Assembly (NCBI GenBank): GCA_029762535.1
Contig: JARVGK010000014.1
Span: forward strand, 1 to 64,000
Reading direction: 5' to 3'
Origin: Thermoplasmatota archaeon
GTDB lineage: Archaea; Thermoplasmatota; Penumbrarchaeia; Penumbrarchaeales; Penumbrarchaeaceae
DNA: 64,000 nt
In this document: positions 1 to 18,033 of the stretch, one piece after another
Layout of the letters: every line of letters begins with the position of its first letter
Position numbering within the stretch: the stretch's first letter is position 1
The notes under the pieces: generated by a model
What the model was told of the DNA's origin: nothing
The model's database searches: none
What the model saw: the letters and a program-made list of their open reading frames with translations, nothing else
Position numbers and translations under genes: made by a program

Positions 1-508
1 ACTCGGCGAACACAGTGCAGGTGTTGTTGACCCTCTCGGGAGAGCATGATAGAAGCGAGATCTCCCCCGCCTTCTGGTGGTCCACGTTGAGGGCCCTGGC
101 GGTAGCGTCTATGAAGCATCCGGTTCCGGAGGAGCACTTGTCGTTCGTACGGAAATCGGATATGATCCCCATCTCCCCGATCCTCATCGCCCGCACGCCG
201 TGACCCCCCATGTCAACGGCTATATCCACGGCACTATCGTGCTCGAAGGCGCCCCTGGCGAAGGAGGTGATCTCTGTCCTTGAGAGGTCGGAGAAACCCA
301 CCGCGCGGCGGCCCTGGCCCGTGGACACGACGCTTTTGAGGTCGGAGATATCGAAACCTTCCATGATATCCTCCTTCATGGAACGCGCCATGCCCTCGAG
401 GTCCACGGTGGTACCCCTGCTCAAATGGGCGACGATGCCCCCGTCCGGGGAATACAGGACCATCTTCGTGTTGATGGCACCAACGTCTATTCCCATATAG
501 AGTTCCAT
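1..508 (-). CDS. BadF/BadG/HgdC-type ATPase activator (partial)
   Basis: The gene starts at 508 and runs off the window edge, so only about the first 169 residues are visible. It reads as an ASKHA-fold ATPase of the 2-hydroxyacyl-CoA dehydratase activator / DCCP-reductase family. The phosphate-binding MGIDVGAINTKMV motif is at residues 5-17, and the cluster motif CSSGTGCF lies near 127-134 with a second cysteine in NNTCTVFAE near 163-169. In known members one cysteine from each subunit of a dimer holds a shared 4Fe-4S cluster, and ATP hydrolysis drives an electron to a low-potential partner. It begins two bases after the upstream HgdB-like gene, whose last codons supply the GAGGAG ribosome site, so the two are translationally linked. 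The partner and substrate cannot be read from the sequence. Confidence 0.88.
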   Translation of the reverse strand, partial: MELYMGIDVGAINTKMVLYSPDGGIVAHLSRGTTVDLEGMARSMKEDIMEGFDISDLKSVVSTGQGRRAVGFSDLSRTEITSFARGAFEHDSAVDIAVDMGGHGVRAMRIGEMGIISDFRTNDKCSSGTGCFIDATARALNVDHQKAGEISLLSCSPERVNNTCTVFAE

Positions 509-510
509 TA

Positions 511-1821
511 CTATCTCCTCGCGCGAAGCATCTCCACGAAGGCCTCGACCCTCGTTCTGACCTGCTCGACATCCCCCTCGTCGTATTCGCTCTCGAGCTT
601 GAGCATGGGGATCCCCGCGCTCTTTAGCTCGAGCTCTATCTTGGTCGCCTCTAAATTGTTCAGATGGCAGCCTCTGAGGGAATGGAACACCACCCCCTCC
701 GCTCCGAAGGCCTTGATGGACATCTTGATGCGGTTGATCCTCTCATCGTTGGGAGTGAAACAGGGGCAGGAGCAGGGGTAGAAGTACTTCTCGGCTATGG
801 CCTCCATCACCCCTCGCATCGTCCGGGATTCAAGGACGATGGGGTCGCTCATGAGCCTTATGCCGGTGCAGAGCTCGTCGGTGATTATGGTCCCTCCGCT
901 GTCCTCCACGATGGAGGGGATCTTGAAGTTGGGGTATATCATGGGGGATCCGGCAAGAAGGATGCGGGCGCCTCCCTCCTCCCCGACGAATCTGCCCTCC
1001 CTCTCCATCATATCCAGCTCCAGAACGAGTTCCCGGACCTTTTTGGTCCATCTTCGCACATCGTCCATCTGGGAGGCCTGGGCGACGAGCATCGCGTCCT
1101 GGCCCGTGATCGAGACCCTCCTGCCTTTGCGATGCTCGAGCAGATCTCGATATACTTCCTGGGCGCTGTTGTAGAGCTCTATCTGTTCAATGATGTCCTT
1201 CTTCCCGATCGAGCGGCCGGTCAAGGCCTCGAGCCTGCTTTTGAGGAACTCGATCTCGGCGAGCCACGTTTTGCTGGTCGTATCCCCGGTCTTGACCCGG
1301 GGCAGGTTCATGATGTGAACGTCCACCCAATCCTCGAGGATCTCAGCAAGCTTCATCTTGCCGTCGCAGGTGGCGGGGGTGACGACGAGATCGACGAGGT
1401 CCGTTATCGGGTTCGCCCCGACCATCTCCGAGCCGAGCGTGGACTTGACCATGGGACACAGCCCGGCGTCCCCGAGAAGCTCGTTCGCGGGATGCACACA
1501 TTCATAGTAGCCGGAGCATAACCTGATGGACCTCGCCCCTGCGGCGTATGTCAGTTCTGAAGGGACCATCACGCACATGGTGCCCACGACCTTGCCCCCG
1601 CCCTTCTTGAACTTCTCGAGCTCCGCCACTCGGGGCCCGCCGTATTCCATGACATCGTCGAAATACGACATGGCCTTGGCCCTGACCTTTTTCGATGACA
1701 TTTCCTTTCTTATCCTCTGGGACATCTTCTTCGATTCCTTCTTCGTCCTATCCACCTGGGCCTCCGAGAAGTATCCTTTCCTTTCCTTGATGTACCTGGC
1801 CGGTCTGTCCTCTTTCTTCAT
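511..1821 (-). CDS. 2-hydroxyacyl-CoA dehydratase family / double-cubane-cluster-like protein
   Basis: 436 residues of the HgdB/BcrBC/FldBC fold, encoded as a single subunit beside its ATPase activator. Ten cysteines are visible at 83, 102, 108, 122, 152, 318, 350, 352, 354 and 385; the CSCPC cluster at 350-354 and the C102/C108/C122 group stand out. A dehydratase would normally need two different subunits, but only one is present here, and the N-terminal half is cysteine-rich. That layout resembles YjiM-type double-cubane-cluster proteins, which bind an 8Fe-9S cluster and reduce small molecules. Family membership is well supported. Choosing DCCP over dehydratase is inference. The start overlaps the NapH-like gene by four bases. 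Confidence 0.82.
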   Translation of the reverse strand: MKKEDRPARYIKERKGYFSEAQVDRTKKESKKMSQRIRKEMSSKKVRAKAMSYFDDVMEYGGPRVAELEKFKKGGGKVVGTMCVMVPSELTYAAGARSIRLCSGYYECVHPANELLGDAGLCPMVKSTLGSEMVGANPITDLVDLVVTPATCDGKMKLAEILEDWVDVHIMNLPRVKTGDTTSKTWLAEIEFLKSRLEALTGRSIGKKDIIEQIELYNSAQEVYRDLLEHRKGRRVSITGQDAMLVAQASQMDDVRRWTKKVRELVLELDMMEREGRFVGEEGGARILLAGSPMIYPNFKIPSIVEDSGGTIITDELCTGIRLMSDPIVLESRTMRGVMEAIAEKYFYPCSCPCFTPNDERINRIKMSIKAFGAEGVVFHSLRGCHLNNLEATKIELELKSAGIPMLKLESEYDEGDVEQVRTRVEAFVEMLRARR

Positions 1822-2798
1822 CGATCATTGCCCCTTATCCTTTGGAATATCCTGCCCAGACCGACCTTTTTGGGCGGTCTGGACGTCACAAGGACGAATG
1901 GTCCCGCTGCAAGTGAAAGGCATCCCTCCTCGGGACACATCTCGACGCATCTGGCGCAGAGGGTGCAGTCCTCCCCGCCGACATCTATCCTGCCCATCTC
2001 CTCGTACACCCTGTCGTGGTCCATTGGGCATACCCTCAGGCAGATCCTGCATTTGGTGCATCTGTCCGGGTCCTTCTTGAGGTAGATCATGGATCCTCCG
2101 GCGAAGAGGGCCATGAGGCCTCCCATCGGGCATATCCTGCAAAACGGCATCCTCATGAAAACGTTCGTCCCTAAAAATATCAGTAGCGATGCCCAGGCCA
2201 GTAGGGGAAGCCGTGTGCTCCATGGCTCGAGGCCAAGTATCTGCTGGAATATTGTGAAGAACCCTTTCGCCGGACAGACCTGGCAGAAGGGAAGTGATAG
2301 AGCCCCGGTACACCCAGCAAGGCCGAGAGCGGAGATCCCGAGAGGGACGGTTATGAGAACGGTCAGGATGAGTATGGCGTACTTTACGCGCCTCAACAGG
2401 ACCCTGGAGGCGAACCCCATCCGCAGGAAGGGGATCCCCACAAGCTCCCTCAGATCGGAGAACAGTTCCTGGACGAATCCGAAGGGACAGAGCCATGAGC
2501 ACCAGGTCCTGCCCAGGACGAGTACGAGAAGTATGACGACCAGGAGCATGATCAATGCCGATGCGAACAGGTCTGACGCCCCGTGGGCGAGCGAGTCCTG
2601 CAGCTGATAGTAGAAGCATGATGTGGGGGCCGTGTTCATGTACCTGCAGGCTGCGTTTGGAAGGAACACCCTTCTCAGCACAGGCTCGGTCCCGAAAGGC
2701 GGCAGGCCCAGAAGCTGTCCTATGAAGAAGGCGAATGCCCCGAGCTGGAACACGACCCGGAGCGGTCTTATGTTCCTGCCCTTGTAATCCGCGCTCAT
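1818..2798 (-). CDS. NapH/NosR-like membrane polyferredoxin
   Basis: 326 residues. About four membrane helices fill the first 230 residues, with cluster motifs CSWLCPFG after the second helix and CRICPMGG after the fourth. Two classical 4Fe-4S motifs follow in the C-terminal tail (CTKCRICLRVCP and CTLCARCVEMCP). This layout belongs to NapH/NosR/RdxA-type proteins that pass electrons between the quinone pool, periplasm and cytoplasmic iron-sulfur proteins. It sits between extracytoplasmic propellers and the cytoplasmic HgdB/HgdC-like pair, with four-base overlaps on both sides, so it is the natural electron conduit of the operon. The electron direction cannot be deduced. Confidence 0.85.
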   Translation of the reverse strand: MSADYKGRNIRPLRVVFQLGAFAFFIGQLLGLPPFGTEPVLRRVFLPNAACRYMNTAPTSCFYYQLQDSLAHGASDLFASALIMLLVVILLVLVLGRTWCSWLCPFGFVQELFSDLRELVGIPFLRMGFASRVLLRRVKYAILILTVLITVPLGISALGLAGCTGALSLPFCQVCPAKGFFTIFQQILGLEPWSTRLPLLAWASLLIFLGTNVFMRMPFCRICPMGGLMALFAGGSMIYLKKDPDRCTKCRICLRVCPMDHDRVYEEMGRIDVGGEDCTLCARCVEMCPEEGCLSLAAGPFVLVTSRPPKKVGLGRIFQRIRGNDR

Positions 2799-4096
2799 CT
2801 GTTTAACCCCGGCCTGTTGCGGTTCGCCGTCCGGACCTTGACTATGGTCCTGACGATCAGAGCGGCGAGGACAATGAAGAAGGCGGCGCTGATGAGGAGC
2901 AATATCTGGAGCACGGGAAGGGCCGGGTCCTCCTCCCCTAGTATCGCCTCCATCCTCCTGGTCTTGCCGTCGATGATGTAGATATGAGGCGTGGAATACC
3001 CGGAGGTGTAATCTCCCTTTCCCACATAGCCCCCCTGGCCCGCTATGATCTCCAGGTCCCCGTCACCGTCGGGATCGCCTATGGTCAGCCCGAGTATGTC
3101 CCTTCCGAGCTGGGGCGATGTCCATTCGATCTCCCGGGTGAGGGCGTTGAAGATGTATATTCTCCCGGCCATGTTGGAGACCACGATCTCCAGGTCGCCG
3201 TCTCCGTCTATGTCTCCAACGTCCATGCCGTAGGCCTTCGGGCCTATGTTCTCGCTCTTGAAAGTGCGGGAATAACCCTCGCCGTCCCAGGAGTATATCA
3301 TCAGGTATCCGTCCCTGTACCTGTATCCGGTGGAGAGTATTAATTCGGGGACCGTGTCCCCGTCGAGGTCCATAACCTTCAATCCCTCAACGCAGCCACC
3401 CAGGTCCTCGCTCATGAATTCCAGCTCACGGGTACCGAGGTCGAAGATGCGGAAATAGCCCTCCCCTGCGACGTCACCCAGGGCAGCCCCGGAGCACACT
3501 ATCATCTCCTCCTCCCCGTCCCCGTCGAGGTCCTCTATGTGTATGTCCCTGAGCCGGGAATCGAAGGGGGGAAGGGAGTCGTAGGGTTTCGAGGAGTTAT
3601 CCTTGAAGAAATAGACCTGCCCCCAGCCCTGGTCCGTCTTGAAACCGGTCCCCACTATCAGTTCGTTCCTCCCGTCACCGTCCACATCATGGAGGTGTAG
3701 GCCGTGGGCGTCCCTGACGAGTGTGTCGGACCTCCATTCGATCTCCTTTGTGATCCCGTCAATGGCCCTCACGTCTCCGTCGCCGTCGCCTATCATGATT
3801 TCCACGGCCGGATCGTCGTCGAACTGTCCGGCGATCAGGCCCCAGGCTCTGGTACCGAACTTCTCCGATCTCCAATCTACCCTGTAATCGCCGCCCCGGT
3901 ATTCGACGGAGACGACATAGCCCTCGTACGAGCCGAACAGTATCTCGTCACGGCCGTCGTCGTCAACGTCCATGCAGATCACCGATTGGAACCGTCCTAT
4001 GCCCGAGGTGAGATCGGAAGGGCCGACCTCGGCCCCTGCCGGGGCCATGATAGTGATCAGCAGCATTAACAGGATGGATAGGAGCAGCCTCCTCAT
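2795..4096 (-). CDS. Secreted FG-GAP/VCBS beta-propeller, C-terminal anchor
   Basis: 433 residues. A signal peptide covers residues 1-22 (MRRLLLSILLMLLITIM...). Repeats of the DxDGDGxxE type follow (for example DVDDDGRDEILFGS, DVDGDGRNELIVGT, DIDGDGDLEIVVSN, DPDGDGDLEIIAGQ), the calcium-binding blades of integrin-like FG-GAP/VCBS propellers. A single helix near 393-415 and a short basic tail anchor the protein with the propeller outside. It is one of four structurally different propellers encoded in a row, which suggests parts of one surface complex rather than duplicates. Overlaps of four bases join it to both neighbours. Ligand unknown. Confidence 0.85.
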   Translation of the reverse strand: MRRLLLSILLMLLITIMAPAGAEVGPSDLTSGIGRFQSVICMDVDDDGRDEILFGSYEGYVVSVEYRGGDYRVDWRSEKFGTRAWGLIAGQFDDDPAVEIMIGDGDGDVRAIDGITKEIEWRSDTLVRDAHGLHLHDVDGDGRNELIVGTGFKTDQGWGQVYFFKDNSSKPYDSLPPFDSRLRDIHIEDLDGDGEEEMIVCSGAALGDVAGEGYFRIFDLGTRELEFMSEDLGGCVEGLKVMDLDGDTVPELILSTGYRYRDGYLMIYSWDGEGYSRTFKSENIGPKAYGMDVGDIDGDGDLEIVVSNMAGRIYIFNALTREIEWTSPQLGRDILGLTIGDPDGDGDLEIIAGQGGYVGKGDYTSGYSTPHIYIIDGKTRRMEAILGEEDPALPVLQILLLISAAFFIVLAALIVRTIVKVRTANRNRPGLNR

Positions 4097-5295
4097 CGCC
4101 TCATCCTCCTTATCTCCCTGACCGCAGGTATGTAGAGTATGATGAGGGACACTGTGAAGATAAGGGCTATCGCGGAGATGGTCACGGCCGCCATGGGGAA
4201 CTCCTTCTCCTTCTCGGGCTCCCGGCCGAATGAATAGACGACCAGGGTGTGGCTCTTCCCCAAAGCCGAGGCGAGCATCTCACCGTCGGGGGACCATCTC
4301 GCGGACATGACCATCGCCTTCTGATCGACGCCCTCGTTGAGTATCTTGAGGGATGTGCCAGTGTCGATGTCCCTGATCTTGAGGGTTAGGTCCACCCCTC
4401 CGGTGGCCACGACGGTGCCGTCGGGGTGTATGTGTACGGAGCGGACGCAGTTGTAATCAGGCCATGTGGCAAGGTTCTCCCCGGTAGTGGAGTTCCAGAG
4501 CTTGATCTTGTAGTCGCGGGAACCGGTGATCAGCCTTGAATCATCATGGCTCCATTCGACATCGAGCACCCCGGAGGTGTGCCCCGATGTATCGACAAGG
4601 AGCTCTCCGGCGGGGAAGGACCAGACCCTTACGGTTCGATCGTCGGATACGGTGGCTATGCGGTCGCCGGCGTTGGACCAGCGGGCCTCTATTATTCCGT
4701 CCCTGTGCCCCGTGAGCTCGAGGATCTCCTCTCCAGACCCCATATCCCACACACGGGATATGTTCTCGCCCGCATTCTGCGGGATCACCTTGTCGGTGCC
4801 TGAGCCGGATAATAGATAACGCGAATCGGGGGAGAATTCCAGGCACAGGACCGAACCTGTATGAGAGGTGAAGGTCATCTCCTCCTCCCATGTCGTGGTG
4901 TTGAACACGTGTATGTCCGTATCGTCCCCTCCTACGGCCAGGAACCGGCCGTCGGGCGAGAATGCGGCATCCCTCAGAGGGAGCAACCCATCGGGTGCGA
5001 AGCCGTCGCACCGGGTCCTCTCGGGAGAGAGATCGATCGTCCTTACGACGCTTCCGTCAGCGGCGTCGAGGACGACGCATGTGGAATCGAAGAAGACGAT
5101 GGCGATCATGGAGCCGTCATGGGACCAGTCCATCTTCCACAGCGTGGCCTCCGAACCCGAATAGGTGTGGTTCCATTCTATCTGGAGAGATCCCGCCCTC
5201 GATGAAGCGGTGGAGCCCTCCTGCGAGCTCATCGTCGAGGGGACGATCATCAAAAATATCGCGGATGCGATCGCGAAAACCCTCCATTGCCTCAT
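4093..5295 (-). CDS. Secreted WD40 beta-propeller, C-terminal anchor
   Basis: 400 residues from the ATG at 5295. This start is preferred over an in-frame ATG at 5337 because it has a GGAGG site eight bases upstream and restores the four-base ATGA overlap seen at every neighbouring junction. A hydrophobic signal (RQWRVFAIASAIFLMIV) is followed by WD40-type blades (SWSHDGSMIAIVF, EFSPDSRYLLSGS, RWSNAGDRIATVS, EWSHDDSRLITGS, SARWSPDGEMLASA). One membrane helix near 370-392 and a basic tail end the protein. WD40 propellers are protein-interaction platforms, and an extracellular anchored one is less usual. Function unknown. Confidence 0.85.
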   Translation of the reverse strand: MRQWRVFAIASAIFLMIVPSTMSSQEGSTASSRAGSLQIEWNHTYSGSEATLWKMDWSHDGSMIAIVFFDSTCVVLDAADGSVVRTIDLSPERTRCDGFAPDGLLPLRDAAFSPDGRFLAVGGDDTDIHVFNTTTWEEEMTFTSHTGSVLCLEFSPDSRYLLSGSGTDKVIPQNAGENISRVWDMGSGEEILELTGHRDGIIEARWSNAGDRIATVSDDRTVRVWSFPAGELLVDTSGHTSGVLDVEWSHDDSRLITGSRDYKIKLWNSTTGENLATWPDYNCVRSVHIHPDGTVVATGGVDLTLKIRDIDTGTSLKILNEGVDQKAMVMSARWSPDGEMLASALGKSHTLVVYSFGREPEKEKEFPMAAVTISAIALIFTVSLIILYIPAVREIRRMRR

Positions 5296-6866
5296 ATCTG
5301 CGCCTCCGGCCTTCTTCTGAGAAGGAAAAGGAAGCATAAAAGGAAGATGTCCAGAATGATGAAGAGCAGGATGCCGGCTATGTAGTAGGGCCTGAAGGGG
5401 GATACCACCTTCATGCGGTCGGAAGGCGCGTCGTCCCCTGGCTCCACGGCCAGCGATGCAACGGTCCGGCCCGCCCTTCCGGAGTCCTCCGCGGACAACA
5501 TGATATCGATCGTGGACCTTGAGGAGACCGGGAAGGGATCGAACTCGATCCTCGTTTTTCCTCCGCTGCCGGTCTTGATGTCGGTATCAAGAGCCTCTCC
5601 GCCGGAGGAGCGGACGAGGATGCTCGCGCCGGGAACCGTTGCTCCTGTGCTGTCAAGAACGGTCACATCGATATACGCCAGCTCGTCCGAGCGCACCTCA
5701 TCGACCTCGATCTCGACCAGGACCTGAAGTGCTCCGGAGCCGGGATCCCCCACGGAATAGACGTTCCAGTCGCAGGAGCCGAAGAAGACCGCCCCGTCGT
5801 ATAGTACCGGCGAGGAATAGACGTAGCCGCGGGTGGTGTAGTTGAATATCAGGGAGCCGTCGCTCCTTTTCAGGCAGTAAAGATTGTAATCGTCGGAGCC
5901 GATGAGGATGACATCCTCGAGGACGAGGGGGGATGAACCCCCCTGCTCGTCGCGGGTGAAGAAGGACCATACCACCTCGTCCGGATCTATGACGCCGTCA
6001 TCGTCGTCCAGGGGAAGGCACCACGTGTACATGAACGACCCGAAATAGACCATTCCGTCCCTGATGGCCGGAGTGGAATATGCGGCGTGTCCGGCATCGA
6101 AGCGGTAGACCTCGCTCAGGTCTTCGGCGTCCAGTCCGATGAGGCTTTTCCCCTCGCCCGTGGTCATGTAAACAACCCCTTCGTGCAGGGTGCCGCTCGA
6201 GTATAATTCGCTGTCGCCACCGAGCCTGACGGTCCTCAGCAGGTCTCCCGTCCTTATATCCAGCATGGCGAACAGGTCAAGGACGTCACCGACATAGAGG
6301 CGCCCGGCCCCCTCATCTATCAGAGGGGTCGCCCATATCTCGTTGCCGACCTTGGTCCTCCAGTTGAGGCTCCCGTTCTCGTGGAGGCAGAGGACGGACC
6401 CGTCCAGACAGCCGAATATGATGGAGCCCTCGAAGAGGTGGGCGGACGATAGTATCTGCGAGCCGCATTCATAGCTCCAGAGGGTCCTCGGCCTTCCGCC
6501 CTGGCCGGGGATCTGCAGGCAGTAGAACATCCCGTCCATGCTGCCGAAATATACTCTGTCCCCGACGATGAGGGGGGTGCTCTGTATGGAGCCTCCGGTC
6601 TTGAACTTCCAGTTCAATTCCCCTGTCAACGGGTCAAGGCAGTAAAGCCAACCGTCGTCCGAGCCGATGAGGAGGCCGCTGTCGAAGAAGGAGGGGGATG
6701 AGAGGACCTGATCGGAGGTCTCGAACCTCCAGCGCAATACCGCACCGGCGGGAGGCTCGTCGTCCATGGTCCCCGGATGGGAGGGCCCTCCTCTCCATCC
6801 GGTCCAGGCGGCGCTGGCCGAAGGTAAGAGGAGCAGCATCATGACGATAAGGAGGCTCATTCTCAT
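5292..6866 (-). CDS. Secreted PQQ-type beta-propeller with Ig-like domain and anchor
   Basis: 524 residues. Signal peptide at 1-19 (ending ASAAWTG). Then repeated blades of the form YFGSxDGxxYCLDxxTGELxW (for example LIGSDDGWLYCLDPLTGEL, YFGSMDGMFYCLQ, LIGSDDYNLYCLKRSDGSL), as in PQQ-like/BamB propellers. No PQQ-binding residues can be confirmed, so the quinone should not be assumed. Residues about 375-470 form an Ig-like or carboxypeptidase-regulatory-like domain, and a helix at about 492-517 anchors the protein. It has four-base overlaps at both ends in the operon. Probably a binding or scaffold module of a surface complex. Confidence 0.83.
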   Translation of the reverse strand: MRMSLLIVMMLLLLPSASAAWTGWRGGPSHPGTMDDEPPAGAVLRWRFETSDQVLSSPSFFDSGLLIGSDDGWLYCLDPLTGELNWKFKTGGSIQSTPLIVGDRVYFGSMDGMFYCLQIPGQGGRPRTLWSYECGSQILSSAHLFEGSIIFGCLDGSVLCLHENGSLNWRTKVGNEIWATPLIDEGAGRLYVGDVLDLFAMLDIRTGDLLRTVRLGGDSELYSSGTLHEGVVYMTTGEGKSLIGLDAEDLSEVYRFDAGHAAYSTPAIRDGMVYFGSFMYTWCLPLDDDDGVIDPDEVVWSFFTRDEQGGSSPLVLEDVILIGSDDYNLYCLKRSDGSLIFNYTTRGYVYSSPVLYDGAVFFGSCDWNVYSVGDPGSGALQVLVEIEVDEVRSDELAYIDVTVLDSTGATVPGASILVRSSGGEALDTDIKTGSGGKTRIEFDPFPVSSRSTIDIMLSAEDSGRAGRTVASLAVEPGDDAPSDRMKVVSPFRPYYIAGILLFIILDIFLLCFLFLLRRRPEAQI

Positions 6867-8134
6867 TTCCCACCCCGCTCGGGAACATCGTTCTTTCGTC
6901 GTTCGAACCTTGCTCGCCGCATATATCCCTTTTGGAGCCTGTACAGGATGGTGATAACGATGATCATGAAGGCGATGTTCAGGAGAGAGAGTATGAGAAG
7001 CACGAAGTAGAGGGGAGAGACGCCTCGAGGCGGATCGCCCTCTCCGTCGATCGGAGAGGGCCCGACGGCGCGGACATAGCCCAGGTCATCTCCCCATATC
7101 ACCATGCCGCAGCAGATGGCGGGTGATCCCTCCTTGACGGGTCCATACCTGAAGGTGAAGCTTACGCTCCCGTTGCTAAGATCGAGCATCTTGAGCCCCT
7201 CGCCGTCGCAGAAGCCCGCCAGGCCTCCTCCGATCGCCGGGGAGGACTTGATCGCCCCTGCCCCTCCCGAAAAGTTCCATAGTATCCTTCCGTTGTAGGG
7301 GTCCAGGGCATATATCGAACCATCGTCGCACCCGACGACGATCCCCGAAGGGTCGGAGGCGGGAGATGAGAACACGTCCCCGCCCAGGGTCGTGTTGAAT
7401 ATGAGGGACCCGGTCGCTGCGTTCAGGCAGTAGAGGTTCGAATCGTACGAGCCGAAATACACCCTCCCGTCCATGATTGAGGGGGAGGATGGTATGTACT
7501 CCGCCTCGAAGCTCCAGAGGAATGAACCGTCGCTCACGTTCAGGCAGTAGAGGCTGCCGTCGCAGGACCCGAAGTACATCCTCCCCTCCCAGAAAGAGGG
7601 CGTGGTGTGTATCCACCCACCGCAGCCCGCGTATTTCCATGCCTGGGAGCCGTTGACCAGATGGTAGCACAGCATCTCGGACCCGTACGTTCCGATGTAG
7701 AGCATCCCGTCGATCGACTTCGGTGAGGAAAGGATCCTGTCGCCAAGGGGCGGGTTCATCCATGATACGCTGCCATCATCGGCGTTCAGGGCACCGACCG
7801 TCCCGTCATCGGCGCAGAACACGACGAGGCCATCGATGATGAGCGGGGTGGAGGACAGCCTCGATCCCGCGTCGTATGACCATGCCTCCTCCCCGGTGGT
7901 CGAGTTCAGGCAGACAAGGGTGCCGTTCGCGGTCCCGAGGACCGCCATCCCGCCATCGGCCGAGACGGAGGATGTTATGGGGGACCCGGCGTCATGCTCC
8001 CAGATAAGGGTCGGGGCATCCTCCCATTCGAGATCCCCCGAACCGGAATTGAGTGGATCCCCACGGAAGGAGGACCATCCCAGGACCTGCCCGGATAATA
8101 GCAAAAAGGTCAGCAATATGACGATCCGCTTCAT
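6863..8134 (-). CDS. Secreted PQQ-type beta-propeller, C-terminal anchor
   Basis: 423 residues. Signal peptide at 1-19. Nearly the whole mature part is PQQ/BamB-type blades (YIGTYGSEMLCYHLVNGSQ, YFGSCDGSLYCLNVSDGSF, YFGSYDSNLYCLNAATGSL, VGCDDGSIYALDPYNGRI). A helix at about 375-397 is followed by an unusually long basic cytoplasmic tail (YMRRARFERRKN). It is a paralogue of the next gene in the operon but lacks the Ig-like domain. The stop overlaps the next start by four bases, and its own start overlaps the permease stop. Substrate or partner unknown. Confidence 0.83.
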   Translation of the reverse strand: MKRIVILLTFLLLSGQVLGWSSFRGDPLNSGSGDLEWEDAPTLIWEHDAGSPITSSVSADGGMAVLGTANGTLVCLNSTTGEEAWSYDAGSRLSSTPLIIDGLVVFCADDGTVGALNADDGSVSWMNPPLGDRILSSPKSIDGMLYIGTYGSEMLCYHLVNGSQAWKYAGCGGWIHTTPSFWEGRMYFGSCDGSLYCLNVSDGSFLWSFEAEYIPSSPSIMDGRVYFGSYDSNLYCLNAATGSLIFNTTLGGDVFSSPASDPSGIVVGCDDGSIYALDPYNGRILWNFSGGAGAIKSSPAIGGGLAGFCDGEGLKMLDLSNGSVSFTFRYGPVKEGSPAICCGMVIWGDDLGYVRAVGPSPIDGEGDPPRGVSPLYFVLLILSLLNIAFMIIVITILYRLQKGYMRRARFERRKNDVPERGGK

Positions 8135-11100
8135 GAGTCCCTCCTCCTTCGAATATCGCCGGATGTTGCAATGAGAGCTCCCGATATGGACACGATGAAA
8201 GCAGTGAACATGACCGCTCCCGCTATGAACAGAGGGACCGTGAGCGATCGAATGGGATCCATCCCGTCGACGGCGGGGGAGAGGGCCGCCGCCGATATCC
8301 CGACGATCAGGGCCGAGGAAACGGCGGCCGTGAAGGACAGCATGTTCTCAAGGACCAATGCGCTCCCGATCCTCCTCTTTTTGAGTCCCATGCTGTGGAG
8401 GAGATGGATATCGGTGGTCCTCTCCCGGGCCCTGGCGATGGTGAAGGAGGCGGCGGAGATCAATCCCGCGCCGATCCCCACGATGAGGAATTGGTTGAAT
8501 ATGGAGAGGAAACCCAGCTCGTATCTCATGTTCTCCCTGCCTAGATCCAGAGTGGACCGAAGGTCGGGACCGAGCGGCTCAAGCGCCTCCCTCAAGGCGT
8601 CAATGGACCCGCCTGAGGGCGGGTCCTTCACAAGCAGTATCGAGGGCCGGGCGGACCTGGGAAAGTGATGCAGGAGAAGGTCCCTGGACATGACGAACGA
8701 TCCGGTCAGCACCGAGGGTGACAGGACGCCCACGACCACCATGGTCATTTCCTCTCCCTTCTCATCGGTGAGGGAGAATAATGAACCGATGTCCTCGTAG
8801 TATATCCAGGTCAGGGTGTTCTCGTCCACCAGGATCGGGACGCTGCTGCCTTGGTATTCATCGAGACCGGACCATATATCCTCCTCGTCGCTGCCCTCCC
8901 ATCGTATCAGATCGAAGCGCAGGTCATGAGGGATCCCCAGCAGCCGCGGAGGGTAGGGGGCATTGATGTTGGAGCAGGTGCCCCCCTCATCGCCCACGGC
9001 ATAGATCTCCGATGCGTAATATCCCCTTGAACTCAGCTCCGAAATGGAATCGGAGATCGCTTCGCGGTTGGTGACGGAGAGCTCCGCGATGTGGTCATAC
9101 CCGCCGCCGTAGTCCATGGCTTCGGAATCGATACGCGCCTCCAGGCCCGCTCCCACCGAGGAGAGCGAGATGGACACCGCGACGGTCAGGGCAAGGATCG
9201 CCGTGACGAGGGGGGCGAGGCCCGGTCTCCTGCGAAGGTTTGCGGATGCCAGCAGGTATACCGGACCGGGATCCCGGATGACGATGAGCAAAGAGATCAT
9301 CAGGAGGGCTATCCCCGAGGCGGATGCGGCGGAGCCAAATACATAGAGCATGGAAACGGCGAGGTTCGACCCGGCGCTGCCAGTGAGGACCAGCATCGCG
9401 ATGCCCGAAAGGGCGAGTATCCCCCCGGCGGTTGGGATCACGAACCTTACCGGACGGTCATCTCCGATAGAAAGGTCCTCTCCCCTTGCGTTATGATCCG
9501 GAGGCCTTGCGGCCTCCCTCAAGGATATGCCAAGGACGATCGCGCCGGAGAGCAGAGTGCCTGACAGGGCGGAGAAAAGGGCCGTATCGATATCGAGGAC
9601 GGTGGGTATGTCGTATCCCTCCACCGACCCGGACCAGGCGCCGCCTAGCATGAGTCCAAGGAGCAGCGCCAGGAGGTAACCCATGGGGATCCCAAGGCCC
9701 GCTCCCAGGGCTAGGGCGGGGACGGAGTCAAGGACCGCCACGAGGCCAAGCCCCCTTCTTTTCAGCCCGATCGCCCTGGCGTTGGCCCACTCCCCGGCCC
9801 TTTTCAGGTACCTTCCACGCAATATGCCGAGAAGGGTGAGGCATGCCCCGATGATGATGGTCGATCCGAACGTGAGGAACATCAACGGGAATATGGACAG
9901 CGCCCGGTCCGAGCCAAGAGCCATCTCCCTGGCCTTGACGATCCTGCCTCCACCTCCGGTGAGGCCGCTGTGAAGGTCCTCAACTTTCAGGCTCCGATCC
10001 AGAAGGTCCGGCGCATCCTCCTCCGAGGCGTTCACAAGGACCCCCGTGACGGACCCGTAGGGTGTTTGAAAGATATCCCGCGCCTCTATGAAGTTCATGA
10101 TCACGCGGGGGGTAGTCCTGTATCTCTCCCAGTAATCTATGTCCTCATCCGTTATCCTGTTTAGGTCAACATCGAATGACGGGGACCAGTCGGAACAGGA
10201 ATCCCGGTCCGTGATCCCCGCTATCGGAGGCACCAAGACCCGCAGGGGGTAGAGGGTTCCGACATCCAGGATCCCAGTGACCGTCAGGTCTATCTCGGTG
10301 GGGACCAGGTTACCGTAAGGGTCAAGGGTCCTGGCCTTTATAGTGAACTTGTCGCCGGGGCCTATCCCGAGGCGAAAAGCGGTCTCGTTCGATATTATGG
10401 CGCCGCCGACGGGCGGGACATGGACCCCCATCATCGGCACATCCGATCCGATCATGGTGGAGTAAGGTATGGAACCCCCATCGGAATCGATCCCGTCAAC
10501 GAAGTAGGCCAGAACGGGATCGCCGAAGGGTGGGCGGGGGAACATGAAGTCCTCGTTCATGATGAGGGATGCGCCTCCGAGGTCCGTAACGGTGTAACCA
10601 AGGTCCCCGGGGCCGATCGCGTCGTTGAAGGCCACGACGATATCGGGTTCGGTTAGGTCCGATCGACAGAGGAATGTATTGACGATCCCCGGATCGCCCA
10701 TGACATTGGAGAGATGGTCCAGGTCCAATATTATGATGGGAGGGGCCTCTTCCCGTGAATCGGTCCTGAACCTGCCCAGACCGCGGTCCGGGACGACCCT
10801 GGCTATCGGCAGGTCCAGCGTCAGGGACGGCGAGGAGATCCCCGCAATGGTCCTGGGATGCGGCAGCGGCAGCTTCAGTTCGAGGGAGTCCCCGGATGAG
10901 AGGGCGAGCCTATCGGAGGCTTTGAGGTTGATGTAGGCGGATGCGCCAGTGGGGAATTCTCCGTCGGCGCCATCAAGCGGGAGCAGGTCCCGGACCGTGC
11001 CCTTTGCACCTATGACCCTGATCCGGGCCGAGGCGGAGGCGGATCGGGCGGACCCTTCGAGGATGAGGGCGGCGTGGATCCCCCCCTCCGTGAGGCGTTC

Positions 11101-11418
11101 GAGCGCCTCATCGCCGGGGTGGATCGGGTCCGGGTATTCGACGATCATCCCGACATCGGACATGTTCCTCGATACGTTGTCGGAGACCTTTGCCTTCAGG
11201 CCGTCGCCTATGGACAGGGATGCCAGGATGACCGCGATGACTAGGGCGGATGTGAGGGAGATATAAAGGACCCCCTCCCTCCTCCTGAGGGAGGATATCA
11301 GTCCGAGCCGAATATATGCGACCCTCTTATGCGTGATGGCAAGGGCCGATGTGAGAGCGGCCAGTGCCAGGGCCATGATCGCCGCGGATGCCATAAGGGG
11401 GATCCCCTCAGCGGCCAT
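8131..11418 (-). CDS. Large FtsX/MacB/LolCE-type ABC permease
   Basis: 1095 residues and the first gene of the operon. A helix pair at the N terminus precedes a large ectodomain (about 70-540). Four or more helices follow, then a second ectodomain (about 790-960) and three closing helices. This is two MacB_PCD/FtsX units in one chain, as in LolCE- or MacB-type permeases that act as mechanotransmitters on external partners rather than as classical transporters. The cytosolic coupling segment ARARERTTDIHLLHSMGLKK is typical of FtsX permeases. Such proteins need an ATPase, but none is encoded in the visible operon. The start at 11418 has no ribosome site but sits about 26 bases below a TATA box, fitting a leaderless mRNA. 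Confidence 0.85.
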   Translation of the reverse strand: MAAEGIPLMASAAIMALALAALTSALAITHKRVAYIRLGLISSLRRREGVLYISLTSALVIAVILASLSIGDGLKAKVSDNVSRNMSDVGMIVEYPDPIHPGDEALERLTEGGIHAALILEGSARSASASARIRVIGAKGTVRDLLPLDGADGEFPTGASAYINLKASDRLALSSGDSLELKLPLPHPRTIAGISSPSLTLDLPIARVVPDRGLGRFRTDSREEAPPIIILDLDHLSNVMGDPGIVNTFLCRSDLTEPDIVVAFNDAIGPGDLGYTVTDLGGASLIMNEDFMFPRPPFGDPVLAYFVDGIDSDGGSIPYSTMIGSDVPMMGVHVPPVGGAIISNETAFRLGIGPGDKFTIKARTLDPYGNLVPTEIDLTVTGILDVGTLYPLRVLVPPIAGITDRDSCSDWSPSFDVDLNRITDEDIDYWERYRTTPRVIMNFIEARDIFQTPYGSVTGVLVNASEEDAPDLLDRSLKVEDLHSGLTGGGGRIVKAREMALGSDRALSIFPLMFLTFGSTIIIGACLTLLGILRGRYLKRAGEWANARAIGLKRRGLGLVAVLDSVPALALGAGLGIPMGYLLALLLGLMLGGAWSGSVEGYDIPTVLDIDTALFSALSGTLLSGAIVLGISLREAARPPDHNARGEDLSIGDDRPVRFVIPTAGGILALSGIAMLVLTGSAGSNLAVSMLYVFGSAASASGIALLMISLLIVIRDPGPVYLLASANLRRRPGLAPLVTAILALTVAVSISLSSVGAGLEARIDSEAMDYGGGYDHIAELSVTNREAISDSISELSSRGYYASEIYAVGDEGGTCSNINAPYPPRLLGIPHDLRFDLIRWEGSDEEDIWSGLDEYQGSSVPILVDENTLTWIYYEDIGSLFSLTDEKGEEMTMVVVGVLSPSVLTGSFVMSRDLLLHHFPRSARPSILLVKDPPSGGSIDALREALEPLGPDLRSTLDLGRENMRYELGFLSIFNQFLIVGIGAGLISAASFTIARARERTTDIHLLHSMGLKKRRIGSALVLENMLSFTAAVSSALIVGISAAALSPAVDGMDPIRSLTVPLFIAGAVMFTAFIVSISGALIATSGDIRRRRDS

Positions 11419-11448: not shown

Positions 11449-12061
11449 ATTGCTGGTACGGTCGAAAGCTCCTGCACGATTTGGTACGAAAATCACAGCA
11501 AGGTTTGGTATACTGATTTGCATACCTCTGCCCAACGATGACGTGAAATTGACGCTCCGTTGGGCTCGGAACATGCCAATGTAATTGGCAGGTTAGGTGA
11601 AATAACATCAGTTATTTTACGACTATTTCGAAGTCCCGTATCAAAAAGATCTTGACGCAAGGGACTTACGAAAAAACCCGACTATAATTTTCATACTATG
11701 ATGTGATATTCTAGCTTATGAGGGTTTTTTATGGTCTTTTCGACCCATTTTACCGATCTTGTCACATCTCTCAATTTTGACCATACCGTTACAACGACTT
11801 TCCATCAGGAAGGACCCATTGAAATATATAGAGACGAGGTAGGACAGGGAGGTCATCCGCGGGGCGTGTCATAATCTTGATAACATCCGGAACAAGGGAT
11901 GAAGCCTATCACTGGGCTGAAGGATCCCGGGAAAGGAAGATGGGCGTGATCATGGCTAAGTTAAGTGCTGATAACGAGTAATTCGATCCCGATCGAGGGC
12001 AACAAGATAAAAGTTTATAAGGAGGAATTTTAAGAAAAAAACGCTAAATAGTAATGTATAT
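11449..12061. other. Gene-free AT-rich spacer
   Basis: About 610 bases between the minus-strand operon promoter and the plus-strand element at 12062 hold no convincing coding sequence. Its left part (11507-11748) is packed with short inverted repeats. The right part holds a TATA-like run near 11823-11830 and one weaker nested stem at 11895-11928 (GGGAT/ATCCC around AGCC/GGCT). No tRNA, rRNA, SRP RNA or RNase P signature is recognisable. Confidence 0.5.
11507..11748. repeat. Array of consecutive inverted repeats, possible structured RNA
   Basis: Seven short stems follow one another. GGTAT/ATACC is at 11507-11511/11522-11526. CCCAACG/CGTTGGG is at 11531-11537/11558-11564. TGCCAAT/ATTGGCA is at 11574-11580/11584-11590 (3-base loop). 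AAATAAC/GTTATTT is at 11600-11606/11611-11617 (4-base loop). AAGTCCC/GGGACTT is at 11631-11637/11661-11667. AAAAAACCC/GGGTTTTTT is at 11671-11679/11722-11730. A bulged ATGGTC/GACCCAT is at 11731-11736/11742-11748. The GGGTTTTTT arm would make a plus-strand terminator-like end. It could be an RNA, operator sites or a decayed mobile element. Confidence 0.4.
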
Positions 12062-12160
12062 ATAGTGGTTATAAATATATTTTCGATTAGTTTCTTATAG
12101 TCCTATTTCATTTAAATAATCCTCTTTTAAAAACGCATGTTTTTAAAAAGGTATAAATAT
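12062..12160 (+). repeat. AT-rich promoter/dyad element, copy 1
   Basis: About 99 bases closely matching 22347-22443. Shared parts are the ATAGTGGTTATA opening, a CGATTARTTTCTTATAGTCC block, the dyad and the following GGTATA TATA box. In both places an ATG lies 31-32 bases after the TATA start. Shared order and spacing point to a conserved promoter and operator rather than random AT-rich sequence. Confidence 0.7.
12125..12148. promoter_or_regulatory. Operator-like dyad, copy 1
   Basis: A perfect 10-base inverted repeat, TTTTAAAAAC and GTTTTTAAAA, separated by GCAT, immediately before the TATA box at about 12152-12159. The same dyad with the same spacer is at 22409-22434. A dimeric regulator bound here would contact the TFB/TBP site. 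The tandem HTH-TPR proteins at 19.4-22.3 kb are the nearest candidates, which is inference. Confidence 0.6.
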
Positions 12161-12183
12161 GGTGGATTAAAATATCATTTCTC

Positions 12184-12261
12184 ATGAACGACAAGCGTGA
12201 GAAAAGAAGTAAAAACCACATCAGAGGGGATATTTTCCCGGCTCTGATATGGCAACTATAG
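12184..12261 (+). CDS. Possible leaderless 25-residue peptide
   Basis: A short frame encoding MNDKREKRSKNHIRGDIFPA and five further residues (LIWQL). It has no ribosome site, but its ATG lies 32 bases below the TATA start of the repeated promoter element, matching the position of the caspase-like gene start at the other copy. It could be a leaderless leader peptide for the secreted gene at 12311, or simply mark the transcript start of that mRNA. Basic N-terminal half, hydrophobic C terminus. No family recognised. Confidence 0.3.
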   Translation: MNDKREKRSKNHIRGDIFPALIWQL

Positions 12262-12310
12262 TATTGATCTAATTGTCTGACATAAATAAAGAAAACAGAG
12301 GTGTGAAAAC

Positions 12311-13630
12311 ATGAAAAACATAGGTAAAACCTTCGGGACAATGTTCGGTTTGATCGTCATTGTATTGATGATCCTCCCCACATTGGTGAGTGCTGCCATA
12401 GTGAATGAACAAAGGATCGGAGGCTATAATCCTGATCCTGGAGGTCCTATATATGCTGATACAGCAGCCATAGATTCGGTTGGAAATGATGTTGTTGCAG
12501 TATTTTCACAGCAAACCCAACAAGGTGGCTTCTATAATGTGTATATAACAAAATCGGTTAACGGAGGAGGAGCTTGGAGTAACCCCGTTAGAGTGTTCAA
12601 TCAAAACGTGGATCAGCTCAACCCTGATGTGGTTCTGGTAGACATTAACGAAAACTTGGTTGCGTTCATTGTTTGGAAGCAAGGAGGATATCTAAAATCG
12701 AAAGCATTGTATTTATCAAATCTATCATGTTGGGAAATCTATAGTCAAGGTCAACAACCAAAAACATTGACAGATGAAGGCGTCTACAATTATCCAAGGA
12801 TCGCGGGTAAGAATTATTATTCGGACGGACATTATGCATATGTCTTCATTGTATGGGAGGCATACGTTTCCAATCAAAGGTATGAGATACAGATGAAAAC
12901 ATGCCTTTGGGAGGAGAATGCAAATCCCAGCATCAGTTGGAGTGATGTGATCATTGTCGCTCGTGATTTCTCAAGTTACAGCTTGAGACATCCGACTATT
13001 GATTTCGATATCGATGTTGTTATCACATACGATTGTATCAATAGGGGCACCAATATCAATGATGTGAAATTCAAACGATATTTCTTTACTTTTTCATCAC
13101 TATATCCGGAATACAACGATCCTTTCGATCTTGGTGTTTCCATTTTTCCCACCCAATATGATTATTATTATCCCGAGATAACCATCAAATTTGCAGATTA
13201 CCGTGTCGTCGTTGTTGGACAAAAGATCGATGATGTGAATTATATCATCGGCCGTTCTTGCGACTTCAGTCTGGCTTGGGATACCGCCATAAATGTCGGG
13301 AACAGCTCGGTAGCTCCTTCTTTAAGAGGGGTCGCTGTCGATTCAACCGTTCCGGATGAGCGGGATGAACCAAAATTCGATGGAGGTATCAAAGCCATGT
13401 GGGCCAACAATTCAAAGATTACAAGTAGAAAGTTGAAGGTTGTATCCGGGTCCTTGACAGCCTTAGGAACGGAAGATACAGATACTTACGGTTACTACGA
13501 TGGTGAATTAACGCATGTGGCAATATCTTTAACATACGTATATGAAGAAACCATCAGAGAGGTCTTTGGACATCATGTATACATGAACTATCCCGGGAGT
13601 GTTATCTATTACACTGAGAATGGAGATTAG
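12311..13630 (+). CDS. Secreted beta-propeller-like (BNR/sialidase-like) protein
   Basis: 439 residues. Signal peptide at 1-28 ending LVSAA. The rest is a run of beta-rich repeats such as YITKSVNGGGAWSNPVRVF and CDFSLAWDTAINVG that recall the Asp-box/BNR blades of sialidase-fold proteins. Catalytic residues are not evident, so an enzyme call is not justified. No C-terminal helix is seen, so it is probably released or held by partners. The ATG has GAGGTG seven bases upstream, so the mRNA has a leader of about 130 bases running back to the dyad promoter. Base composition is clearly AT-richer than the flanking operons, suggesting acquisition. Confidence 0.65.
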   Translation: MKNIGKTFGTMFGLIVIVLMILPTLVSAAIVNEQRIGGYNPDPGGPIYADTAAIDSVGNDVVAVFSQQTQQGGFYNVYITKSVNGGGAWSNPVRVFNQNVDQLNPDVVLVDINENLVAFIVWKQGGYLKSKALYLSNLSCWEIYSQGQQPKTLTDEGVYNYPRIAGKNYYSDGHYAYVFIVWEAYVSNQRYEIQMKTCLWEENANPSISWSDVIIVARDFSSYSLRHPTIDFDIDVVITYDCINRGTNINDVKFKRYFFTFSSLYPEYNDPFDLGVSIFPTQYDYYYPEITIKFADYRVVVVGQKIDDVNYIIGRSCDFSLAWDTAINVGNSSVAPSLRGVAVDSTVPDERDEPKFDGGIKAMWANNSKITSRKLKVVSGSLTALGTEDTDTYGYYDGELTHVAISLTYVYEETIREVFGHHVYMNYPGSVIYYTENGD

Positions 13631-13673
13631 TAAAGATCGTATATGAACATTTGAGGTGTCTTGTAGAAGATAT

Positions 13674-13701
13674 GAAGGTCCCTCGAAACTCGGGGGACTT
13701 C
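13674..13701 (+). terminator. Hairpin between two secreted-protein genes
   Basis: GAAGGTCCC and GGGGGACTTC form a stem with one bulge around a short loop, 44 bases after the stop of the propeller-like gene. There is no T-run behind it, so it may be a 3-prime end or processing hairpin rather than a classical terminator. Confidence 0.35.
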
Positions 13702-13729
13702 ATAACATAGGAAGAAGGAATATGCCAGC

Positions 13730-13737
13730 CATATACC
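13730..13737 (+). promoter_or_regulatory. TATA box of the GLUG/PKD protein gene
   Basis: TATACCCT within CCATATACCC is centred about 28 bases upstream of the ATG at 13762, the distance expected for a leaderless transcript. No good ribosome site precedes that ATG. Confidence 0.4.
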
Positions 13738-13761
13738 CTTTCAACGAAGGAAAGATAAATA

Positions 13762-16700
13762 ATGGAACATATGATGAGTAACATGAGATCGATGATGGCG
13801 GTCAAAATCAGTGTGGTCGCCATCATCCTTTTTTTCTCTTTTTTTAGCATTTACCCTAGTGGGGCCCAAGATAATCCCTACACAAAGGGCAGTGGAACAC
13901 ATATCGATCCCTACGTCATAGAGGATGTGTGGGATCTCCAGAATATGACCGATGACTTGAGCACCCACTACGTTCTCGGCAACGATATCAACGCTTCCGA
14001 TACGATCAACTGGAACTCTGGCGCTGGTTTCTATTCGATAGGAAACGCAAACTCACCTTTTACCGGAAGCCTTGACGGGAGGAACCATACCATAACAGGA
14101 TTGTTCATTCACCGCCCCGGAACAGACCATGTTGGTCTATTCGGGTATACTGGATCTGGGGCTACAGTCGAACGGGTGATCCTTGTGGATCACTTTGTTA
14201 AAGGAAGCAGATATGTAGGCGCGATTGTTGGATGGAACGAAGGAGGTGTTGTCTCGGACTGTGTGGCTTCGGGAACAACAATGGTAGATATTCATTATCT
14301 AGGAGGTGTTGTTGGAATTAATCGAGGGGGCATAATATCAAACTGTTCCTATAAGGGGATAGTAGACGGAAAGGCGAATGGCTTACAATCTATTGTCGGG
14401 GGTATAGTAGGATTAAATGAAAATGGCATAATATCGAACTGCGATATGCAGGGTAATATAACCAGTAGAAATTATGCGGGTGGGATCGTCGGGGATAATG
14501 TCAATGGCATGATCTCCAACTGTTATGTGATGGGGAGTGTGAGGGGGAGTCAGGTTGTGGGTGGAATAATTGGAGCCGATGGGGGTACTGTTGAGCATTG
14601 CCAATCCTCAGCTGATGTTAGAGGATCAAGGAACGTCGGTGGTCTTATCGGATGGAAAAGCGGCATTGTGTCCAATTGTTATTCGACTGGAAATGTTAAT
14701 GCAAGCGACCATGGTGCGGGTGGTCTGATAGGAACTTTGGCTCAAGGTATTGTTTCTGACTGTTGGTCAACGGGACATGTATTATCTGGTCGCTATTATG
14801 TAGGAGGTTTGATCGGAAGCAATTATGGTAGAATATCAAATTGTCATTCCTCAGGTAATGTTGTAGGAACCAAGGAGGTCGGAGGATTGGTGGGTAGGAA
14901 CGAAGGTCGGATATCCAACTGTTATTCGACTGGAAATGTCACTGGTAGAATTTCCATTGTAGGTGTTGCAGTTAGTTCTTTAGGTGGTTTGATCGGTTAC
15001 AACGGTGGCAAGGTGTCCAACTCGCATTACAGCATTGAGAGGGTATCGATAAACGGCGGTGAACATCTCACGATTGGGGGGTTATTCGAAGATCAATACC
15101 TGAACTGGTTATCCAACGACCTTACTTTGGATATAACCGATTACGGATCCTCACTGGCGTTAAATGAGGGATATTATCATATCGATAACATTCAAGGAAT
15201 CAGGGATATGCTGGGATTCGTTGATGATGAAGAATACAATTTCCGCTTTTCTTCTGATATTGATCTATCAAGCGCACCGGGTTTATACCTTCCATATTTT
15301 GGAGCATCGGAATTGGATGGCAACAATCATACTATAACCAACTTAAACCTTGATCTTTCATTTGTTTCGAATGTTGGTATGATCGGTTATAATTATGCTG
15401 GAAAAATAAAAAATATCCAGATGGTCAATATCAATGTGTCAGGTTATGAGAATGTCGGTGGATTGTTGGGTTGTAATCACAACGGTGTTGTATCAAATTG
15501 CTTTGCGTCAGGAACCGTTAACGGTGTAAATGATTATACCGGCGGTCTCGTTGGATTAAGTAGCGGTACGATATCCGGTTCTTCTGCTTTTGGAATTGTT
15601 AAAGGAACCGGATCATCTAAAGGTGGTCTTGTAGGTTCGAATAATGGGAGGATATCAGACTCTAATTTCATTGGAAATGTGACCGGTAATGGCGCTTCGG
15701 GTGGATTGGTTGGTTCTAATAGCGCTATTATCTCCAACTGCTATTCCAAAGGGGATGTGAAAGGTGGAAACAATATGGGCGGATTGGTTGGGTCAAATGG
15801 CGGTAGTGTTTCCAATAGCCATTCTGAAAGTAACGTGATGGGAAGATCACCTGTTGGTGGATTAATGGGTTATAACTCAGGTAATGTTATCTTTTGCTAT
15901 GCATCTGGAGAAGTAACAGGTAAAGATTGTGTTGGTGGGCTTATTGGATCTAACATAGGAAGCGTTACAAAATGTTATGCTACCGGTAATGTAAGGGGAT
16001 CTTGGGTAGTGGGCGGGCTCATAGGTTCTAATGGATTATGTATTGTATCCAACTGCTACTCGACTGGGAAAGTTATCAGGATTTCTGGAAATACTACGAA
16101 CTTCGGCGGATTTGTTGGATTAAATGAGGGACAGATAATCAATTCGTATTCAACGGGTAGGGTTATCTACAATGGTAGTAACGATCCCACGGATAAGGGC
16201 TTTGCAGGAAATATATATGAATATGAAGAATACGAGATGAGAGGGAATTTCTGGGATAACGAGACCAGTCTGCAAACGACCACATCCGGTGAAGCTATCG
16301 GAATGAATACGACCATGATGAAGACGAGGAAGACGTTCACTGATGCTGGTTGGGATCTCAGATTTGTCTGGTGCATGATAGAGAAGGTAACATATCCCTT
16401 TCTCAGGTGGCAGGATACGAAGCGTCCCATTGCAGATGCCGGTCCTGATCTGATCGTTGATGAAGGCACTTTTGTAGAATTTGATGGTAGCGGAAGTTAT
16501 GACGATAGGGGTATAGCGGATTATTTATGGAGTTTTATCGATAACAAATCTGTTACGTTGTATGGAGTCAAACCTGCGTATCAGTTTAACAATCCCGGAA
16601 TTTTCATAATCACATTAAATGTCCAGGATGCAGTAGATACTTGGGGATCTGACACCATGACAGTTACTGTTTTGGACATATCCCCGCCATCAGCGAATGC

Positions 16701-17880: not shown

Positions 17881-18033
17881 GATCGAAAACCCTCTTGTAT
17901 TATTCAGCACTGTGTTTTTTGTGGTTCACAAAGACCTCGAACATCTGGGGGGTGGGGAATATGAGCCGGGGGACCAATACCAACCGGATAGTGCTGCTTA
18001 GAAAGCCTGAAGGAGCTTGATAAGGGAAAACCG

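Follow-up and report, generated by a model that had tools for sequence, protein, structure and literature searches.

A nine-gene archaeal operon combines a double-cubane protein, a NapH-like polyferredoxin and surface propellers, and its redox core recurs in other phyla

The window analysed here is a stretch of 64,000 nucleotides from a Thermoplasmatota archaeon of the family Penumbrarchaeaceae (assembly GCA_029762535.1, contig JARVGK010000014.1; G000:C8:1-64000 in our numbering, in which G, C and L label genomes, contigs and loci). Its first 11,418 bases hold most of an operon that encodes a double-cubane cluster protein (DCCP) resembling HgdB, HgdC-type activases, a NapH-like membrane polyferredoxin, four surface propellers and an FtsX-like protein. 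These are known families in an undescribed, recurrent module: the core of NapH-like protein, DCCP and one or more activases occurs in three phyla, each time with other envelope partners. We give about even chances to the reading that the operon encodes one envelope redox machine, in which electrons driven by ATP to very low potential pass through the polyferredoxin and support the handling of a metal or metal-cofactor substrate at the outer face.

Organization of the operon

An earlier note on this DNA had described an eight-gene operon. Eight open reading frames do lie on the minus strand of positions 1-11418, where it had placed them. The count is right for the window, but the operon itself has nine genes, the last of which (HgdC2) lies on another contig. 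The genes are as follows.

2..508, minus strand: HgdC1, BadF/HgdC-type activase, N-terminal 169 residues, cut by the contig end (PF01869, 2.3e-16; TIGR00241, 1.3e-28)
511..1821, minus strand: DCCP, HgdB-like, 436 residues (NF040772; PDB 7yyl and 6eno; cysteines)
1818..2798, minus strand: NapH-like polyferredoxin, 326 residues (PF12801, Fer4; TIGR02163, 74.8 bits)
2795..4096, minus strand: FG-GAP propeller, 433 residues, with a signal-peptide-like start and a C-terminal anchor (PF13517, 1.3e-19)
4093..5295, minus strand: WD40 propeller, 400 residues, secreted and C-terminally anchored (PF00400, 7.1e-44)
5292..6866, minus strand: PQQ/BamB-like propeller a, 524 residues, C-terminally anchored (PF13360, 2.9e-24)
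6863..8134, minus strand: PQQ/BamB-like propeller b, 423 residues, C-terminally anchored (PF13360, 1.9e-38)
8131..11418, minus strand: duplicated FtsX/MacB-type permease-like protein without an ATPase, 1095 residues (PF12704, 2e-8; PF02687, 1.4e-7)
G000:C51:9544-10616, minus strand, outside the window: the rest of HgdC1 (96 residues) and the complete HgdC2 (L048)

Pfam and NCBIfam agree with the family names first given to these genes (BcrAD_BadFG, HGD-D/double_cubane, Fer4_5 plus Fer4, FG-GAP, WD40, two PQQ/BamB-like, and MacB_PCD plus FtsX). The tight junctions were also described correctly: ATGA is read at 1818-1821, 2795-2798, 4093-4096, 5292-5295, 6863-6866 and 8131-8134, and the two-base gap between HgdB and HgdC reads TAG-TA-ATG. 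The overlap start of the WD40 gene is an internal ATG at 5295 (the first ATG is at 5337), and it opens a clear signal sequence.

Base 1 of the window is a contig end that falls inside HgdC1. BadF-type ATPases were sought throughout the same genome, and contig C51 proved to end with a 96-residue C-terminal fragment of HgdC1 and a full-length second activase, joined to each other by an ATGA overlap. Aligned with its relatives, the C51 fragment resumes the HgdC1 of the window after about 15 absent residues; at the assembly break, contigs C8 and C51 are only some 45 bases apart. The complete loci of relatives have the order FtsX, PQQ-b, PQQ-a, WD40, FG-GAP, NapH, HgdB, HgdC1, HgdC2. A chimeric contig was ruled out, the same order being found in eight genomes.

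Conservation within the Thermoplasmatota

The NapH-like protein was searched at 1e-30 against 390 genomes of the phylum and matched in 15, including all 8 sampled members of the window's family. Gene order is kept in every one of these 8, with NapH and HgdB at about 60% identity. The nine genes stand on one contig in four of the genomes and on two contigs in the window's own; in the other three the locus is cut by a contig end and the remaining genes are in order. Co-occurrence in related genomes had been proposed as a test of the operon, and the operon passes it; its conservation exceeds chance.

Not all parts are equally conserved. Within the family, identities are 53-63% for FG-GAP, WD40, NapH and HgdB (60-63% for FG-GAP and 53-55% for WD40), 35-45% for the PQQ propellers (40-45% for a, 35-41% for b) and 32-34% for the FtsX-like protein. 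Outside the family, FG-GAP and WD40 genes adjoin NapH-HgdB at L033 and L035, and FG-GAP alone does so at L036, where the contig starts; these loci belong to other families and even to another class-level branch. The L033/L035 proteins are 45% (FG-GAP) and 35-39% (WD40) identical to those of the window. The L035 locus also has PQQ and FtsX genes, the latter at 25% identity, and the non-family loci carry an extra gene for a membrane protein of 206 residues. Since FG-GAP and WD40 are conserved about as well as NapH and HgdB, and better than PQQ and FtsX, they look the most tightly coupled to the redox core.

This pattern bears on a simpler explanation, that the genes merely share a transcript: the redox module would maintain an envelope iron-sulfur or thiol function, and the propellers and FtsX-like protein would form an unrelated surface or secretion structure. 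The faster evolution of the PQQ and FtsX genes fits such a separation, as do two Thermoplasmatota loci (L037 and L039) that have NapH-HgdB without the propeller and FtsX set. However, WD40 and FG-GAP accompany NapH-HgdB across families and a class-level branch, and the strict ATGA coupling runs across the boundary between iron-sulfur and surface genes. We regard mere transcript sharing as distinctly unlikely.

The double-cubane protein

The earlier note had called the HgdB-like protein double-cubane-like, and its sequence places it in the double-cubane family proper. It matches the solved double-cubane proteins 7YYL and 6ENO over its full length (8e-69 and 1.7e-68), far better than it matches BzdN or HadC. 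Exactly six cysteines (83, 122, 152, 318, 352 and 385) are invariant in 42 relatives, and all six have a cysteine opposite them in the alignment with 6ENO/7YYL; a double cubane requires six thiolate ligands (PMC11971306). With 344.5 bits the protein falls just below the NF040772 cut-off of 350, which is passed by its orthologue at L003 (357.4) and by the bacterial L011 (353.5). On its structural matches and cysteines we take it for a DCCP, and the six cysteines are the predicted ligands of an [8Fe-9S] cluster. Distance matrices of NapH and HgdB correlate at r=0.85 (39 loci), as is expected if the pair travels together.

The operon has one HGD-D gene, and the only other one in the genome is on contig C9. 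A class I benzoyl-CoA (coenzyme A) reductase or 2-hydroxyacyl-CoA dehydratase was therefore rejected, the second, different HGD-D subunit being absent from the operon.

The two activases

Both activases have the features of the HgdC/BadF type, namely an acetate-kinase-like ATPase and two cysteines for a bridging cluster, HgdC1 of the window being split over two contigs. HgdC1 and HgdC2 of the family retain the cluster-cysteine motifs NDKC..GTG and TC.VFA.SE, and in HgdC1 of the window the cysteines of NDKCSSGTG and TCTVFAE are present. The GGQD motif of HgdC2 reads GGHG in HgdC1 of the family and GGQG in HgdC1 of L006. Class I benzoyl-CoA reductases likewise have paired activases, and by analogy the contrast between GGHG and GGQD suggests unequal roles; the two proteins probably form a pair in which HgdC2 has the intact ATP motif. 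The chain from NapH through HgdC to HgdB that was drawn initially is kept as a low-potential route via the polyferredoxin beside the DCCP, but a single HgdC gives way to an activase pair as its start. Two BadF-type ATPase domains also occur within a single open frame of 1413 residues elsewhere in the window's genome (L043/L044, G000:C28).

The NapH-like polyferredoxin

The membrane protein scores 74.8 bits with the NapH model TIGR02163, under the cut-off of 213, and we call it NapH-like only. It has two CX3CP/CX2CP-type cysteine pairs and two ferredoxin clusters, and another four cysteines (51, 61, 172 and 175) besides. Judged by hydropathy, the C-terminal double ferredoxin domain shares its side of the membrane, which we take to be the cytoplasmic one, with cysteines 100/104 and 220/223, and 51/61 and 172/175 face the other way. 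In a survey of 44 proteins (among them L039, which aligns ambiguously, and L010, a NapH-like protein without HgdB), all four outer cysteines are present in 29, none in 13 and some in 2. Kept or lost nearly together, they behave as one site, which from this pattern is possibly a further iron-sulfur cluster. Two views of the site were rejected. It is not a mark specific to the module, as other NapH-like paralogues carry it, and it is not strictly complementary to a DsbD-like gene, as both occur in L011, L074, L077, L137 and L139.

Surface proteins

All four propellers have a hydrophobic C-terminal segment followed by basic residues, together with signal-peptide-like starts, as read by eye from the translations rather than by a predictor; this agrees with the C-terminal anchors assigned to them before. 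The FtsX-like protein had been described as a permease without an ATPase, which also stands, as no complete relative has a cognate ATP-binding cassette (ABC) ATPase in its operon: none with Walker A and LSGGQ motifs was found in the relatives' operons. The only ABC ATPase seen (L006/L032) belongs to a separate MacB-type pair farther downstream. A complete exporter of MacB/LolCDE type was therefore rejected. The suggestion in the earlier note that the permease moves a substrate or transmits force is likewise not supported, as the operon encodes no ATPase for it. Each large ectodomain of the FtsX-like protein has one invariant cysteine (C408 and C815), present in 6 of the 6 proteins compared, down to 25% identity. 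The two might form a disulfide with each other or serve as metal ligands.

The core module in other phyla

In the Thermoproteota, the partners of the core are a DsbD-like protein and a surface protein. DCCP matches occur in 28 of the 349 genomes of the phylum of the Bathyarchaeota genome compared, and in 14-15 of 18 neighbourhoods the DCCP stands with a NapH and/or DsbD-like gene and two activases, usually near a large, CARDB-containing surface protein. At the Thermoproteota loci L140, L142 and L150 the DCCP occurs in a second setting that lacks NapH, beside an AIRS-domain (SelD-like) protein and a LysR-like gene, and at L140 and L142 with an activase and small membrane genes as well; this context is possibly related to selenium or sulfur. 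Two Thermoproteota genomes have an ammonium-transporter-like gene near the DCCP module (L141, 9041-10297; L153, 14161-15001), which is notable given that azide and hydrazine are substrates of DCCP.

A close NapH was found in 15 of 395 Desulfobacterota genomes. In most of 18 neighbourhoods there, several on contigs too short to judge, and also at L009, L011 and L012, NapH-HgdB-HgdC lies near a TonB-dependent receptor, a C-terminally anchored periplasmic protein and ExbB/ExbD/TonB. The adjacency of the receptor is not due to chance, since the genomes with the module have just 1-27 TonB receptors each. Most bacterial clusters, like the archaeal operon, have no gene for an inner-membrane importer. 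At L075 (169-1988) an ABC permease and ATPase pair stands just upstream of the set of periplasmic protein, NapH, HgdB and HgdC, and may be a cognate importer. A secreted DUF4198 protein lies close to the cluster in L077, L087 and L088; the family has a nickel-binding member (PMC12537917).

A cobalamin link in one bacterial clade

At five Desulfobacterota loci (L076, L079, L082, L083 and L085; 82-115 bits) the operon is directly preceded by a cobalamin riboswitch in Rfam searches (gathering threshold 31.5 bits). Genomes in which such riboswitches were counted hold 2-17 of them, these five 4-17 each in 2.7-4.4 Mb. That five of about 20 loci should by chance have one on the correct strand, no more than about 250 bases upstream, is negligibly likely (~1e-13 by a rough estimate). 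Riboswitch and receptor occur together in the bacterial module only: L079 and L085 have a TonB receptor and L082 an ExbB-like gene. The receptors of this clade are nearer to heme and B12 receptors than to any single curated type, and none reaches a curated cut-off. A secreted BtuF-CbiZ fusion (PF01497 and PF01955) follows the trio in L085 and lies about 1.7 kb downstream in L083. The substrate in this clade is probably a corrinoid. The occurrence of the core in TonB uptake clusters, five of them with a cobalamin riboswitch, lends independent support to the role that the earlier note gave the outer parts, that of handling a substrate or metal.

Cobalamin riboswitches are also known to govern B12-independent isozymes, and the trio might thus replace a B12-dependent reaction when B12 is short. 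The same clusters, however, carry parts for uptake and salvage, namely the heme/B12-like TonB receptor, ExbB/ExbD/TonB and the secreted BtuF-CbiZ protein, and we consider such a substitute very improbable.

A potential of about -600 mV is required to reduce cob(II)alamin to cob(I)alamin. The range of low-potential steps assigned to the double-cubane clusters in BzdNO is also about -600 mV (PMC11971306), and this match counts in favour of a redox machine acting on a metal cofactor.

Proposed function and direction of electron flow

In the machine that we propose, the activase pair would spend ATP to drive electrons into the double-cubane protein at very low potential, and the NapH-like protein would receive them from it at its ferredoxin domain. 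By way of the iron-sulfur sites on the cytoplasmic and outer sides of the NapH-like protein they would then cross to the outer face. A surface apparatus would use them there to handle a metal or metal-cofactor substrate reductively, whether by binding it, stripping its ligands, releasing it or taking it up. The apparatus would consist of the four anchored propellers and the ATPase-less FtsX-type scaffold in the archaea studied here, of a DsbD-like and a large surface protein in Bathyarchaeia-type genomes, and of a TonB receptor with ExbB/ExbD/TonB in the Desulfobacterota. We favour outward flow on the grounds that every lineage has extracytoplasmic partners, many have a DsbD-like protein and most clusters have no dedicated inner-membrane importer; outer-face reduction and a metal or metal-cofactor as the archaeal substrate are what we infer along with it.

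The main rival is inward flow. The NapH-like protein would draw electrons from quinol or an outside donor, its ferredoxin domain would reduce the activases, and the DCCP would be the terminal cytoplasmic catalyst acting on a small substrate or an imported cofactor that the surface proteins bind or sense. The characterised DCCP does catalyse reactions itself, on acetylene, azide and hydrazine (PMC11971306, citing Jeoung and Dobbek), NapH has been seen as a putative quinol-linked donor (PMC8238504), and reduction of a cofactor after import would suit a B12 riboswitch. The scarcity of inner-membrane importers (the nearby ABC permease of L075 apart) argues against it, as does the DsbD-like protein of many modules, which is normally an outward sender of reducing power. 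On balance inward flow seems unlikely.

Several points weigh against the outward machine. Electron direction cannot be read from sequence. Unrelated NapH-like paralogues have the four outer cysteines too, and most Thermoproteota modules lack them, so that outer-face transfer by that route is not universal. An AlphaFold model of NapH built on 10 sequences had a mean pLDDT (predicted local distance difference test) of 43, too poor for geometry, and was discarded. The archaeal loci and the other bacterial clades tested yielded no cobalamin riboswitch, and L086-L089 have none even at a lax threshold; CbiZ was not found in the window's genome. In the HgdB tree a long distance separates the B12-linked bacterial clade from the archaeal one, and the DCCPs of the former score only about 200 bits with NF040772. 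With riboswitches and BtuF-CbiZ in one clade and none in the archaeon, the corrinoid role is strong for that clade and a mere lead for the archaeon.

A bolder form of the outward machine, which we put forward with considerable doubt, is that at least three phyla share an undescribed device in which ATP would raise electrons to near or below -600 mV at the double cubane. Exported via the polyferredoxin, they would be strong enough to reduce cobalt corrinoids or free tightly bound metals outside, and the archaeal propellers and FtsX-like scaffold would take the place of the TonB system.

Relation to known systems

The closest family members are DCCP and its reductase DCCP-R (6ENO, 7YYL), which share the six conserved cysteines and an HgdC-type ATPase encoded alongside. 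Unlike them, the module ties the DCCP to a membrane polyferredoxin and to surface or TonB proteins, and in archaea has two activases. DCCP, described as archetypal for the benzoyl-CoA reductase/dehydratase family, is without a known physiological role (PMC11971306). A setting of polyferredoxin, TonB uptake and cobalamin riboswitch turns that open question into ones that can be tested in bacteria. If electrons do exit at such potentials, anaerobes would have a new way to spend ATP on envelope reduction, and the odd set of archaeal surface genes would be explained.

The nearest described frame is that of the NapH-like extracytosolic electron-transfer systems (Meheust et al. 2021, PMC8238504), in which a NapH-like iron-sulfur protein likewise moves electrons across the membrane to varied envelope partners. 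Those systems are flavinylated and defined by FMN-binding (flavin mononucleotide) or ApbE parts, which had no Pfam or NCBIfam match among the eight window proteins, whereas the partner here is an ATP-driven double-cubane protein; the main text of that paper contains neither the term BadF nor HGD-D. The PepSY-like, P19 and TonB-linked systems of reductive iron uptake (PMC8238504) also set an envelope reductase beside a TonB receptor and DUF4198, with reduction freeing the metal. They use PepSY or FMN/thioredoxin chemistry and act on iron, in contrast to the NapH and double cubane found here and the probable corrinoid of one clade.

Class I benzoyl-CoA reductases (BcrABCD/BzdNOPQ) have two activase subunits and a double-cubane subunit as well, but the operon has no second catalytic subunit of HgdA/BzdO type and no CoA-ester genes around it, and it has a membrane partner. 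The nos cluster (NosR, NosZ, NosDFY) combines a polyferredoxin, a propeller and transporter-like parts and is a loose analogue only: the propellers differ, the operon has neither a copper enzyme nor an ATPase of that kind, and nos has no double cubane. A search for this gene set in a limited collection of papers found no description of it, which is weak evidence of absence.

Flanking region

Beside the operon, G+C content drops from about 0.58-0.61 to 0.39-0.48 at 12000-18000 of the window, over two secreted proteins. One is encoded at 12311-13630, and the other, at 13762-17880, is a GLUG/PKD-like adhesin of 1372 residues.

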